NCBI GenBank assembly: GCA_030156435.1
Contig: JASGMM010000014.1
Location: 1 to 35,908, forward strand
Length of the DNA: 35,908 bases
Direction: 5' to 3'
Source of the DNA: Clostridiales bacterium
GTDB taxonomy: Bacteria; Bacillota; Clostridia; Mahellales; Mahellaceae
Shown here: positions 10,764 through 35,908 of the stretch, piece by piece
Numbering within the stretch: position 1 is the first letter of the stretch
How the letters are laid out: the number at the start of each line of letters is the position of its first letter
Position numbers and translations under genes: made by a program
The notes under the pieces: model-generated
The model's input: only the letters and a program-made list of their open reading frames with translations
The model's database searches: none
What the model was told of the DNA's origin: nothing

Positions 10764-10898
10764 AAATAAACCTTCTTTCCGGAGATAAAGTAAAGTATCT
10801 GGACCTATTATACACCCTATGCGACGGGTTGAAAATATTCGCAGTTCTGCGGCAACTTTGATATAATATTGGCATGAACGAATGAGGAGGAATAAACT

Positions 10899-11372
10899 AT
10901 GCCGGATATGCTTGTCAAATTATATGAACTTCCGCCGGTTCAGCCGGTATTAGAGCAGCAGAAAGCCCAGGGGATAGATATACGCCGGGCTTTGCCACCT
11001 GAGAAACGCGCTGTGGTCGAGTGGGTGGCCGATAAATTCGGCAACGGCTGGGCCAGCGAATGCGACGTGGCTTTTTCCAATCGCCCCGTATCGTGCTTTA
11101 TAGCCGTGAAAGACGGCCAGTTAATAGGGTTTGCCTGCCATGACGCGACGTGCAAAGACTTTTTCGGTCCTACCGGCGTGGATCCTGCCTGCCGCGGTAA
11201 GGGTACCGGTAAGGCACTGCTTTTGGCATGCCTGGATGCCATGGCTGCTCAAGGCTACGCCTATGCTATTATAGGAGGAGCAGGGCCAATGGATTTTTAT
11301 GCTAAGGTTGCGGGTGCTACTGTAATAGATGGTTCAATGCCAGGCATATACAAAGGCATGCTGAAGCTTTAA
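10899..11372 (+). CDS. GNAT family N-acetyltransferase
   Basis: 157 aa; VDPACRGKGTGKALLLACLDAM is the acetyl-CoA binding motif A. Confidence 0.85.
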   Translation: MPDMLVKLYELPPVQPVLEQQKAQGIDIRRALPPEKRAVVEWVADKFGNGWASECDVAFSNRPVSCFIAVKDGQLIGFACHDATCKDFFGPTGVDPACRGKGTGKALLLACLDAMAAQGYAYAIIGGAGPMDFYAKVAGATVIDGSMPGIYKGMLKL

Positions 11373-31341: not shown

Positions 31342-31370
31342 TTGCAAAATGCCCGTCTATGGCGTATAAT
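31342..31370 (+). promoter_or_regulatory. Sigma-A promoter TTGCAA-N17-TATAAT for sua5
   Basis: TTGCAA 31342-31347, TATAAT 31365-31370. Confidence 0.6.
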
Positions 31371-31376
31371 CATTTT

Positions 31377-32429
31377 ATGAAAACAACAGTAATAGACATT
31401 GATCCTGAAAATATAAATGAAGATGCTATAAGGAAAGCTGCTATATTAATAAGAAAAGGCGAAGTAGTAGCGTTTCCGACTGAGACGGTGTATGGCTTGG
31501 GCGCCAATGCCCTGGATGCTTCTGCAGTACATCGTATATTCGAAGCAAAAGGCCGGCCGTCGGATAATCCGCTCATAGTCCATATATGCGATATATCGAT
31601 GCTGGAAGAAGTGGCGGAACATGTGCCATCCAAAGCGCATTTGCTTATGGAGCGATTCTGGCCAGGGCCACTTACTATCATTATGAAAAAACATAAGAAA
31701 ATACCTTATGAAGTTACTGCCGGCTTGGATACGGTAGGTGTGCGCATGCCCGATCATCCCATAGCCTTAGCGCTTATAAGGAGTGCGGGAGTGCCTCTAG
31801 CAGCACCCAGCGCCAATATATCCGGCCGTCCTAGCCCCACAAAGCCCGAACACGTTATAGCCGATATGCAAGGACGCATAGCAGCTATAATAGCCGGGGG
31901 TACATGCAAGGTAGGAGTGGAATCCACTGTTTTGGATTTAAGTGGGGATAATCCTGTGTTATACAGACCGGGTGGTATAACATTAGAAATGATAGAGGGA
32001 GTCATAGGTAAGGTGGATACTGCACCGGGCATATTAAAGCCTGTGTTTGCTGAAGGGGCAGTACCATCGCCTGGCATGAAATACAAACATTATTCTCCTA
32101 AAGCCAGGGTTATAATAGTAGACGGGCCCATTGACAGGGTTATTGCGAGGATAAAGAAGGAAGCCGATGCATATAGGCAAAGGGGTTACAACGTGGGCAT
32201 AATGGCCACTGAGCAAACCAAGGCCATGTATAGCGAATATATGGTCATAGCGGTCGGTGATAGAGAAAAGCCGGAAACCATAGCTGCAGCGTTATTCGAT
32301 ACATTGCGCTTGTTTGACAAGGCCAAGGCAGATGTAGTGCTGGCTGAAGCAGTGGATACGAATGGCGTTGGATTGGCCATAATGAACCGCATGGTAAGGG
32401 CGGCAGGTTTTGATATAATACATGCATAA
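31377..32429 (+). CDS. L-threonylcarbamoyladenylate synthase (Sua5/YwlC/YrdC)
   Basis: ORF 31359..32429; KGEVVAFPTETVYGLGANAL, KGRPSDNPLIVHI, VPLAAPSANISGRPSPT plus C-terminal Sua5 domain. Start at 31377 inferred from the promoter position. Confidence 0.93.
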   Translation: MKTTVIDIDPENINEDAIRKAAILIRKGEVVAFPTETVYGLGANALDASAVHRIFEAKGRPSDNPLIVHICDISMLEEVAEHVPSKAHLLMERFWPGPLTIIMKKHKKIPYEVTAGLDTVGVRMPDHPIALALIRSAGVPLAAPSANISGRPSPTKPEHVIADMQGRIAAIIAGGTCKVGVESTVLDLSGDNPVLYRPGGITLEMIEGVIGKVDTAPGILKPVFAEGAVPSPGMKYKHYSPKARVIIVDGPIDRVIARIKKEADAYRQRGYNVGIMATEQTKAMYSEYMVIAVGDREKPETIAAALFDTLRLFDKAKADVVLAEAVDTNGVGLAIMNRMVRAAGFDIIHA

Positions 32430-32438
32430 GGAGTGTGT

Positions 32439-32906
32439 ATGATAAATTCTATATTATTTGTATGCAGCGGCAATACGTGCCGCAGCCCTATGGCGCAGGC
32501 TATAGCTGAGACCATGTTTAGAAAGGCTGGCAGCGGTTTAGAATCTATAAAGGTCATGTCGGCAGGCATCGCCGCTGTGGATGGACAACCGGCTTCAGCC
32601 AACGCGATAGAGGCCATGCGCGAGATGGGTATGGATATAAGCCGTCATAGAAGTCGTATGTTGAACGGTGAATTGGTGGGACAAGCCGATCTCATACTCA
32701 CCATGACATTACAACATAAACGTTATGTATTGATGATGTTTCCAGAATCATACAACAAGGTCTTTACACTTAAAGAATATACGGATTGCGGTAGTAGTGA
32801 TATATCAGACCCCTTTGGCGGCTCTTTGGAAGATTATAGAGAGTGTGCAGATGAGATACAGCAAGCGTTATCTAGGTTGGTGCAGAAATTAAAACAGGGT
32901 CAATAG
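32439..32906 (+). CDS. Low-molecular-weight protein phosphatase (YwlE-like)
   Basis: ORF 32433..32906; ILFVCSGNTCRSPMAQAIAE P-loop and DISDPFGGSLEDYRECADEI. Confidence 0.92.
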   Translation: MINSILFVCSGNTCRSPMAQAIAETMFRKAGSGLESIKVMSAGIAAVDGQPASANAIEAMREMGMDISRHRSRMLNGELVGQADLILTMTLQHKRYVLMMFPESYNKVFTLKEYTDCGSSDISDPFGGSLEDYRECADEIQQALSRLVQKLKQGQ

Positions 32907-33017: not shown

Positions 33018-33046
33018 TTGACACAAATACGGTCTTGTGCTATTAT
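33018..33046 (+). promoter_or_regulatory. tRNA promoter TTGACA-N17-TATTAT
   Basis: TTGACA 33018-33023, TATTAT 33041-33046, 12 bp before the tRNA 5' end. Confidence 0.7.
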
Positions 33047-33057
33047 AAGTATGCAAT

Positions 33058-33079
33058 GGGGATATAGCTCAGTTGGGAG
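33058..33079 (+). pseudogene. 5' fragment of a tRNA gene (tRNA-Ala-like), truncated in the D-arm by the integrated element
   Basis: GGGGATATAGCTCAGTTGGGAG matches acceptor/D-arm of clostridial tRNA-Ala-type genes; continuation TACAACTTGTAG is not tRNA-like. Confidence 0.75.
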
Positions 33080-34733
33080 TACAACTTGTAGTATTTAACA
33101 CCCCCACAGTTTGCATATATTTCTCTATGTCAAGGTTTAAAATTACATCAATTTTATCCCTGTATACCACTACTTTATCTATGATAACAGCTAACATAGC
33201 CTTTTTATGTTCCACATCAACCATGTTAAATTTATCCTCCCATGTATATGCTATTTGGGCAAAATCTTCCAGGCTATTTAGTTTATTTTGCTGATATTCT
33301 AGTTCGGGATATAATTTATCTAATTGAGTTTGTACATTTTTTATGTCATCTTCTTTATCTTTTATGGCTTGTGATAACGTATCGGTATCAAATTTACTTT
33401 CACCAATAAGTGCTAAACCAATTTCTCTCCTTAACTTTGTAAGAATTTCGTAGTTTTTTTTATTTTGCTTATTCAGAGCGTCTATTTGATGGTCTATTTT
33501 TTTTATATTTTCTTCAAATAAGTTATCATTTTGTGAAGGTTCAATGTTTTTAAGTTTGTTTATATAATTAAATACCTCTTGTAATACTGCTCCCTCTATC
33601 CTATTACGGGAATATGTAGTAGGGCCTTCACAAACAGATGCACCTTTGTTAAGTTTAGTAGTACACCGATATGACAGTTTGCATCTCCTATGCACTTCAC
33701 CATTCTTTGTTGTATAATTTATCTGTTTTACCTTGCTTGTCAACGCACCCCCACAATATCCGCAATATATAAAACCTGTCAATAATAAAGGCGACTTTGT
33801 CGGCGTATTAACTTGATATTTCTTTTGCTTATTATAATCTCGTGACTTGCGAATTAATTGTGCTTTATCAAAAGTTTCTTTTGAGATAATTGCCAATTCT
33901 GGATTTTGTGTATTAGATATAAGCCAATCGCTTTCATCAACACATTTAGTTACACCATCTTTACGCGTAGTTTTAGCATAACACATATACCCTGCATATA
34001 TTGGATTCCTGACCATATAATCTATGGTGGAGCGTGCCCACGATTTATCATTATACCCATGCTCTATTAAATAATTAGTTACCCTGGCTATTCCATAACC
34101 CAAATCAGTATAAAGGTGAAATATCAACTTGACAATCTCCGCTTCATCTTCATTAATTACCAATTTTAATAATTCCTTGCCATCTTTATTATACTTGCCG
34201 GATGGTACAGTTTTATAACCAAATGGTGCTTGCCCGCCTCTATATTGACCGTCTTGCACCATTTGCCTGTGTTTGGTGTCAACACGTACCGATGTCTTTT
34301 TGGACTCTCCTTCCGCCTGCCAAAAACGTATAAAATTAATCAAGCTGTCTACGTGCTGCTCAAATTTTTGCTGCCCTTCTACGACAGACCACACTTCTAT
34401 ACCCAACTTGTCAAAATATTCTAATACAAACGGAGTTTCTTCTTGCCTGCGTCCGAGACGGTCGAACATATACACGAGCAATATATCAAACAATCCATTT
34501 TCAGCATCATGTTTAGCCTGTATAAGCTGTTCCCTATTATCGGTTTTTGTTTTGTAGCCCGATATTCCGGGTTCAGTATATTCCTTAACTAATTGCCAAC
34601 CATCATGTTTGTCTATAAATTCCATGCAAGCTTTACGTTGCATGGGGATGTCTTGTATGTGCGTATCGTCTAATTGTTTTTTAGTAGACACGCGATATAA
34701 ACAAGCAACTCGTTTTGCGGGTGTCATGTTCAA
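33069..34733 (-). CDS. Large serine recombinase (integrase) with zinc ribbon and coiled coil
   Basis: 554 aa; CLYRVSTKKQ, LLVYMFDRLGRRQEE, APFGYKTVPSG, CGYCGG zinc ribbon and Lys/Glu-rich coiled coil. Confidence 0.95.
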   Translation of the reverse strand: MNMTPAKRVACLYRVSTKKQLDDTHIQDIPMQRKACMEFIDKHDGWQLVKEYTEPGISGYKTKTDNREQLIQAKHDAENGLFDILLVYMFDRLGRRQEETPFVLEYFDKLGIEVWSVVEGQQKFEQHVDSLINFIRFWQAEGESKKTSVRVDTKHRQMVQDGQYRGGQAPFGYKTVPSGKYNKDGKELLKLVINEDEAEIVKLIFHLYTDLGYGIARVTNYLIEHGYNDKSWARSTIDYMVRNPIYAGYMCYAKTTRKDGVTKCVDESDWLISNTQNPELAIISKETFDKAQLIRKSRDYNKQKKYQVNTPTKSPLLLTGFIYCGYCGGALTSKVKQINYTTKNGEVHRRCKLSYRCTTKLNKGASVCEGPTTYSRNRIEGAVLQEVFNYINKLKNIEPSQNDNLFEENIKKIDHQIDALNKQNKKNYEILTKLRREIGLALIGESKFDTDTLSQAIKDKEDDIKNVQTQLDKLYPELEYQQNKLNSLEDFAQIAYTWEDKFNMVDVEHKKAMLAVIIDKVVVYRDKIDVILNLDIEKYMQTVGVLNTTSCTPN

Positions 34734-34871: not shown

Positions 34872-35120
34872 ATGCAGATTTCAAAGGCTGATAAAATTGT
34901 TGTTACTCCACACGCCTATAAACGTTTTGCCGAAAGGGTAGACGACACCCTGTAAAAAAAACAAATGTTTGGCATTATGGCAGAAGTAGTAAGGAAAGGG
35001 CGTGTTATATACAAGAATAGAATTAGCAGCAAAGGCATTGAAGTTATTGGGCAAAAAAATAAAGGGAAAGCAAATAAGTTTCAGTACAACCGCTTTCCCT
35101 TACCCAATAATCAACAATGA
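34872..35120 (+). pseudogene. Small ORF (82 sense-position codons) interrupted by one in-frame TAA
   Basis: GGAAGGAG RBS; MQISKADKIVVTPHAYKRFAERVDDTL*KKQMFGIMAEVVRKGRVIYKNRISSKGIEVIGQKNKGKANKFQYNRFPLPNNQQ*; same frame on both sides of TAA 34953-34955. Confidence 0.6.
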
Positions 35121-35708: not shown

Positions 35709-35908
35709 AGGGTTTGTAATTGTATGTGGGACCACTATGTCTTTTTGCGTTCTTTTTGCTACTTTTAACAGTTAAATAGGGCTAAAATCATTATATTCTA
35801 TCTATAAGTTATAAACGCTATAATAAAAGTGAGCCAAAAACGGGTCAAACGCTAACGAATTTTTGATCCACTAAAGACTAAAAATCCTGTATTATAGACA
35901 TGAAAAAC

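Follow-up and report, generated by a model that had tools for sequence, protein, structure and literature searches.

A probable phage-derived serine-recombinase element in the D-loop of a tRNA-Ala(CGC) gene, and a recombinase clade found at tRNA D-loops

Serine integrases mostly use protein-coding targets, and their use of tRNA genes is unusual; a first sequence-only reading of this DNA had said as much and the literature agrees (PMC4383910), yet there is a tmRNA precedent (PMC3146451). In the Islander work tRNA genes are not among the known targets of serine integrases (PMC4383910), according to an IME review the site-specific serine recombinases lie in protein genes (PMC5704250), and the tRNA and tmRNA attB sites listed for Mycobacterium abscessus belong to tyrosine integrases (PMC10654092). 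The term tRNA is absent from a survey of large serine recombinases (PMC10083194); neither in that survey (PMC10083194) nor in the IME review (PMC5704250) was a tRNA target for these enzymes found, earlier cases being possible elsewhere in the literature. The ssrA islands of Dehalococcoides are a true precedent and the closest one: there the serine recombinase DsiB sits in the tmRNA gene, its own 3' end overlapping that gene, and its authors suggest the enzyme may be fully functional only in the circle (PMC3146451).

The locus described here lies in a Clostridiales genome (G000), in a window of 35,908 nucleotides, the whole stretch analysed, which is the entire contig C52. It shares with the DsiB islands a serine recombinase in a tRNA-like gene, a recombinase 3' end that overlaps the attachment site and takes its stop codon inside the target, and stacking of islands; the window's recombinase gene runs into its target gene. 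The target differs, being the T-loop of tmRNA for DsiB and the D-loop of tRNA-Ala(CGC) here. DsiB is also a CcrB-like enzyme accompanied by a second small recombinase, DsiA, whereas no DsiA-like small serine recombinase ORF lies beside the recombinase in the window, and the tRNA-Gly-like locus of the DsiB module is not described as replacing the target. With tyrosine-integrase islands (PMC4383910) the locus has in common a tRNA gene as attB, a gene kept in presumably working form and a displaced fragment at the other end. Those islands employ another enzyme family and restore the target by attP overlap, which at the window's right end is one of two possible readings; the 3–7 bp cores, the D-loop cut and (in relatives) the whole spare tRNA set the present elements apart. 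The large serine recombinases of phages, ICEs and IMEs (PMC10083194, PMC5704250) provide the same domain architecture, an attachment site by the C-terminal end of the integrase and short crossover identity; their described targets are protein-coding genes, often dispensable, and sister enzymes of the tRNA-associated clade do use protein genes (a tepA-like protease gene and radC). We consider it probable (roughly 0.8) that a phage-derived serine-recombinase element split the tRNA-Ala(CGC) D-loop, that a complete tRNA at its far end keeps the function, and that its clade mostly uses tRNA D-loops.

The split tRNA gene and the recombinase that reads into it

The left junction comprises the following features of the window.
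31359–32906, plus strand: host-flank genes for threonylcarbamoyl-AMP synthase (Sua5) and a low-molecular-weight tyrosine phosphatase (Pfam Sua5_yciO_yrdC, LMWPc)
33018–33046, plus strand: promoter of the split host tRNA gene, TTGACA-17-TATTAT (11/12 consensus positions; conserved in G001 and G002)
33058–33079, plus strand: 5' 22 nt of the host tRNA-Ala(CGC) gene, cut in the D-loop, left junction (attL), from intact orthologues in G001 and G002 and from rejoining
33069–34727, minus strand: large serine recombinase (Pfam Resolvase, Recombinase, Zn_ribbon_recom; PHROG integrase family 95)
33074–33079, no strand: TGGGAG, predicted crossover core, common to the host tRNA, the left junction and the unsplit site of a phage (alignment with phage L185 and relatives)
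33080–33100, no strand: element-side attachment arm beside the core, TACAACTTGTAG..., which aligns with the phage arm and is unlike the host

The sequence GGGGATATAGCTCAGTTGGGAG (33058–33079) forms the start of a tRNA-Ala(CGC) gene, its first 22 nt, and has no second match in the genome at up to three mismatches. That a tRNA 5' part ends abruptly here, as the sequence-only reading proposed, is confirmed at the orthologous loci of two genomes of the same genus, G002 (a complete genome) and G001, which are identical to the window through base 33079 and then continue into an intact tRNA-Ala(CGC). The upstream gene and the promoter before the tRNA are the same in the window, G001 and G002; the Sua5 and phosphatase genes lie upstream of the split tRNA, and the phosphatase gene likewise precedes the intact one in both relatives. 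When the window's 22 nt are joined in silico to the remaining 54 nt of the G002 gene, a good tRNA-Ala(CGC) results. ARAGORN and Rfam find no tRNA in the window because just 22 nt of one are present there. The 3' continuation had been expected to start AGCGC and reads AGTGCC in the relatives, a minor difference.

The recombinase ORF is listed from a TTG at 34733; the ATG at 34727 matches the phage start and is probably the true one. Its product of 552–554 aa matches PF00239, PF07508 and PF13408, all above cut-off, and thus combines Resolvase catalytic, Recombinase and zinc-ribbon domains in more than 400 aa, as expected of a large serine recombinase; the catalytic-serine motif YRVST is invariant in the recombinase alignment. 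The gene ends ...AGT TGT ACT CCC AAC TGA, in which the TGA is the complement of D-stem bases 33069–33071 and CCC AAC likewise falls within the tRNA 5' part. Two earlier suggestions, that tRNA DNA supplies the P-N-stop terminus (A/CT CCC AAC TGA, the slash marking the junction) and that the att junction lies inside the recombinase ORF, are both upheld: only the first base of ACT is element DNA (33080), and the stop codon falls in the tRNA D-arm.

An unsplit form of the site is found in the viral contig IMGVR_UViG_3300034683_000229 (G391, L154/L185), whose recombinase is 66% identical to the window's and adjoins replication genes (DNA polymerase, UvsX-like recombinase, ribonucleotide reductase). 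Over a 938-bp stretch that spans the upstream region and the code for the N-terminal part the two DNAs are 88.6% identical, against 64% in the 3' part of the recombinase gene. The gene (window 33600–34727 against L185) is thus a mosaic in appearance, with a similar catalytic part and a DNA-binding half that looks as if exchanged. Both have AGTTGT.CTCCCA at the att site (TGGGAG on the plus strand) before they diverge, the window into the host tRNA and the phage into its own DNA. The phage protein has 17 residues beyond CPP (IYHTFAPTLTYQTVIQF) and the window protein one beyond CTP (N), making the phage C-terminus 16 residues longer. The idea that excision changes the C-terminus therefore stands in part: the unsplit, attP-like form does encode a longer, different end past the common core, which supports a C-terminus altered by integration, and excision would presumably swap one end for the other. 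Directly after the stop codon of the phage recombinase lies a complete antisense tRNA-Ala(TGC) with its own promoter.

The far end of the element

The element extends past the end of the window onto a second contig, C51, with the following features.
34872–35116, plus strand: small phage-like gene remnant, starting MQISKADKIVVTPHAYKRFAERVDDTL and then a stop; the region up to here is 88.6% identical to phage G391
35117–35425, plus strand: DUF6431 ORF (Pfam PF20020), presumed older-transposon debris inside the element
35803–35809, no strand: TATAAGT, IS target duplication, with its second copy on C51
35810–35908, plus strand: left end of an IS21-family insertion at the contig break, the element continuing on G000:C51
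G000:C51:7244–7318, minus strand: complete tRNA-Ala(CGC) with its own promoter, from a tRNA search of the genome

The last 99 nt of C52 are common to the end of C50, and the first 98 nt of C51 (reversed) to the start of C36; these shared terminal sequences are the two ends of an IS21-family element, full 2.8-kb copies of which occur in G002. Target duplications pair C52 with C51 (TATAAGT) and C50 with C36 (AGTTAGAG), and since those flanking the junction match, C52, the IS and C51 are almost certainly contiguous. In window orientation C51 carries ∼1.2 kb of element DNA with a promoter at its end, then the complete tRNA-Ala(CGC), then host DNA, and the flank directly after the CCA of this tRNA is the one that follows the tRNA in G002. 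The expectation that no restored tRNA would be evident is thus contradicted; the tRNA is not lost, because C51 carries a complete tRNA-Ala(CGC), the sole one found in genome G000, with its own promoter and followed by the host downstream flank. A lone 3' fragment of the split tRNA, which should have lain at the other end, was not found in genome G000.

Two weak tRNA matches, at C18:10766 and C16:46687, were considered as the missing 3' half and rejected, each being the 3' end of another tRNA. These fragments without a 5' part (C18:10766–10810 and C16:46687–46740; L032, L036) are likely attachment scars of other islands. Separately, tRNA-Arg(ACG) and tRNA-Thr(TGT) are present in several copies on C24, C62 and C95, and the low-scoring tRNA-like sequences beside them (C62:3733–3806, C95:4638–4707) may be scars of another tRNA-targeting element.

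Excluding the IS, the element measures ∼3.9 kb, and no phage structural or replication genes were recognised, from ORFs or Pfam, in the part within the window. It may nonetheless be a phage remnant, given the 88.6% identity over 938 bp between its recombinase region and a contig that carries phage replication genes. The present element may also be immobile, as the attachment site on its right has been changed or lost and it contains an IS and debris of an older transposon.

By analogy with the phage, the right end should read spare tRNA, arm, GGGAG, host 3' half, whereas C51 shows a complete tRNA and host flank alone. We lean towards a whole tRNA borne by the element and a recombination between the matching tRNA 3' ends that deleted the outer attachment arm together with the host 3' half, rather than towards a tRNA that the crossover itself rebuilt. 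Both halves of the C51 tRNA diverge from the host tRNA. In the 3' half 8 of 54 positions differ, compensatory pairs included, whereas the flank has ∼4 differences in 80 positions (P about 0.005), and motifs in the D-arm, variable loop and T-loop are common to the C51 tRNA and the tRNA-Ala of the phage. This 3'-half divergence and these common motifs favour the element-borne tRNA, which leaves unexplained that the C51 promoter is close to that of G002.

A somewhat less probable account, still a serious one, is that attP carries a promoter and a tRNA 5' half to which crossover at GGGAG adds the host 3' half, regenerating a working chimeric tRNA whose 3' half has since diverged. The order on C51 (promoter, 5' half, GGGAG, 3' half, host flank) fits this exactly and makes an extra deletion unnecessary; a fusion of the C51 5' half with the 3' half of the host keeps a tRNA-Ala(CGC) fold, and the scheme resembles tyrosine-integrase islands, which rebuild their target with a 3' half. 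If it holds, the GGGAG in the C51 tRNA would be the attR core. Against it stand the excess of 3'-half differences over the flank while the G001 and G002 tRNAs are identical, the phage-like motifs, and the whole spare tRNAs of relatives. It is very improbable that the host ancestor had a tandem tRNA-Ala(CGC) pair, the element entering the first and C51 holding the second: the host-like promoter of the C51 tRNA would suit such a history, but G001 and G002 have a single tRNA at the locus, the DNA upstream of the C51 promoter is unlike the host, and the separate 3' half of the split gene is not found in the genome.

Some 150 bp upstream of the C51 tRNA-Ala promoter lies GTACAACTTG (L107), a sequence that appears again near the right end. 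Of its ten bases, nine make up TACAACTTG, found next to the left core at window 33080–33088; it may be an attachment-arm relic, or chance.

Relatives of the recombinase and their tRNA targets

Relatives with 33–45% identity were gathered from ∼960 genomes together with viral, phage and plasmid records, and the arrangement proves not to be a one-off: D-loop splits recur across the recombinase clade. Halves of tRNA-Asn(GTT) 3' type follow the recombinase in G018, G052, G196, G274, G076, G194, G103, JAFTLK010000235 and the Ruminococcus albus 7 plasmid pRUMAL02; tRNA-Ala halves lie by it in G315, G445, G596, G642 and G050, and D-loop-cut tRNA-Pro(TGG) and tRNA-Val(GAC) in G175 and G758, respectively. 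In a maximum-likelihood tree the tRNA-associated recombinases form one group of 26 rows with moderate support (SH-aLRT 92), neighboured by an enzyme that targets radC and by a sister group with eight members, for most of which the target is a tepA/Clp-like protease gene. Among 25 assessable clade members, 21 have tRNA sequence near the recombinase gene and four have no tRNA nearby; a strict D-loop split (Ala, Asn, Pro, Val) is present in 15 of the 25 and in none of 32 outgroup and sister rows (Fisher P about 1.5e-7, indicative only, the members being related). For G018 the left end of the element was not found over 53 kb, and a probable pair of tRNA-Asn 5' half and complete tRNA lies on another contig, C59.

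Several further arrangements were observed alongside. Sister-group recombinases L194, L195, L197, L201 and L202, from several genera, end in code for the tepA/Clp-like serine protease. At L179 (G103:C41, ∼10775–10962, minus strand) the tRNA-Asn 3' end together with its terminator is present in three tandem copies beside the recombinase, possibly footprints of repeated integrations. The related outgroup serine recombinases L089, L090 and L095 adjoin an intact tmRNA, a tRNA-Leu/tRNA-Gln pair and two tRNA-Ser genes, and are perhaps a second tRNA-associated group.

Could another mobile element, a tyrosine integrase or a transposon, have split the tRNA, the serine recombinase merely lying nearby? 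A tyrosine recombinase fragment does occur near one relative, on pRUMAL02, and the window element contains an IS21 and older transposon debris. We regard this as the least likely of the explanations, and very improbable, because the junction lies inside the recombinase gene in the window and, in most relatives, no more than a few hundred bases from the 3' end of that gene, the cut is always in the D-loop and within a monophyletic serine recombinase group, and the unsplit phage site carries the shared core at the corresponding position of its integrase gene. For the window itself we discarded a tyrosine-integrase reading, since the junction has a serine recombinase and no tyrosine integrase. 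The serine recombinase thus presumably made the cut.

Three relatives have both element ends on one contig: G758 (2 kb), G175 (38.5 kb) and G642 (∼100 kb). The G175 element occupies 38.5 kb between C2:50938 and 89479; rejoining its flanks over TTGGTAG gives a tRNA-Pro(TGG) to which the element's spare tRNA-Pro is identical. Rejoining over GGGAG in G642 gives a tRNA-Ala(GGC), from which the spare differs in its 3' half. The 2.0 kb of G758, a complete genome, run from the host tRNA-Val 5' half through a complete tRNA-Val(GAC), a terminator-like hairpin and the recombinase to the host tRNA-Val 3' half; here the recombinase ends K-S-S-L-I-stop in the tRNA 3' half, so that the tRNA gives the last codons and the stop in the orientation opposite to the window's. 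The G758 host tRNA seems to have decayed, the rejoined sequence having no clear anticodon.

In G758, G315, G175, G050, G445, G596 and G642 a complete tRNA begins 61–202 nt downstream of the first base of the split 5' half. A promoter matching 10–12 of 12 consensus positions precedes the split half in G758, G315, G175 and G050, where matches in the spacer (7–8) are at background; in G445, G596 and G642 a promoter before the split half is not clear. The strong promoter before the split half, with background matches alone in the spacer, suggests that in these four the spare tRNA is transcribed from the host tRNA promoter. The window element and the phage, by comparison, have a tRNA with its own promoter, on the other side of the attachment site. 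The complete tRNA of G050 lies behind two tandem copies of 5' half plus arm, which is what entry of a second element into the first one's spare tRNA would produce.

Proposed mechanism and significance

We propose that the attP of the element, whose core TGGGAG lies in the 3' end of the element's own integrase gene, would recombine with the host tRNA-Ala(CGC) gene, which has an identical core in its D-loop. The tRNA would be split after nucleotide 22, and the integrase would then read into the D-arm and take its stop codon there, while host function would be preserved by the complete tRNA-Ala(CGC) at the far end, which has a promoter of its own. In several clade members an element-borne complete spare tRNA would land just downstream of the broken 5' half, under the captured host promoter. 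We think it fairly likely that this D-loop-specialised serine integrase clade follows a break-and-replace strategy, destroying the target tRNA and bringing a complete tRNA of the same anticodon, often promoterless, under a captured host promoter; the spare would be a fresh target, hence stacking, and in some members the C-terminus rewritten by the tRNA might switch activity between circle and chromosome.

A clade-wide specificity for the D-loops of several tRNA species would alter searches for genomic islands, as tools that limit tRNA islands to tyrosine integrases would miss such elements. It points to integrases that target a highly conserved bacterial site, and raises the testable question of how an element affords a broken tRNA gene by whole replacement rather than by overlap. 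The tRNA-encoded C-terminus, finally, would offer a handle on whether integration alters the activity of the enzyme.
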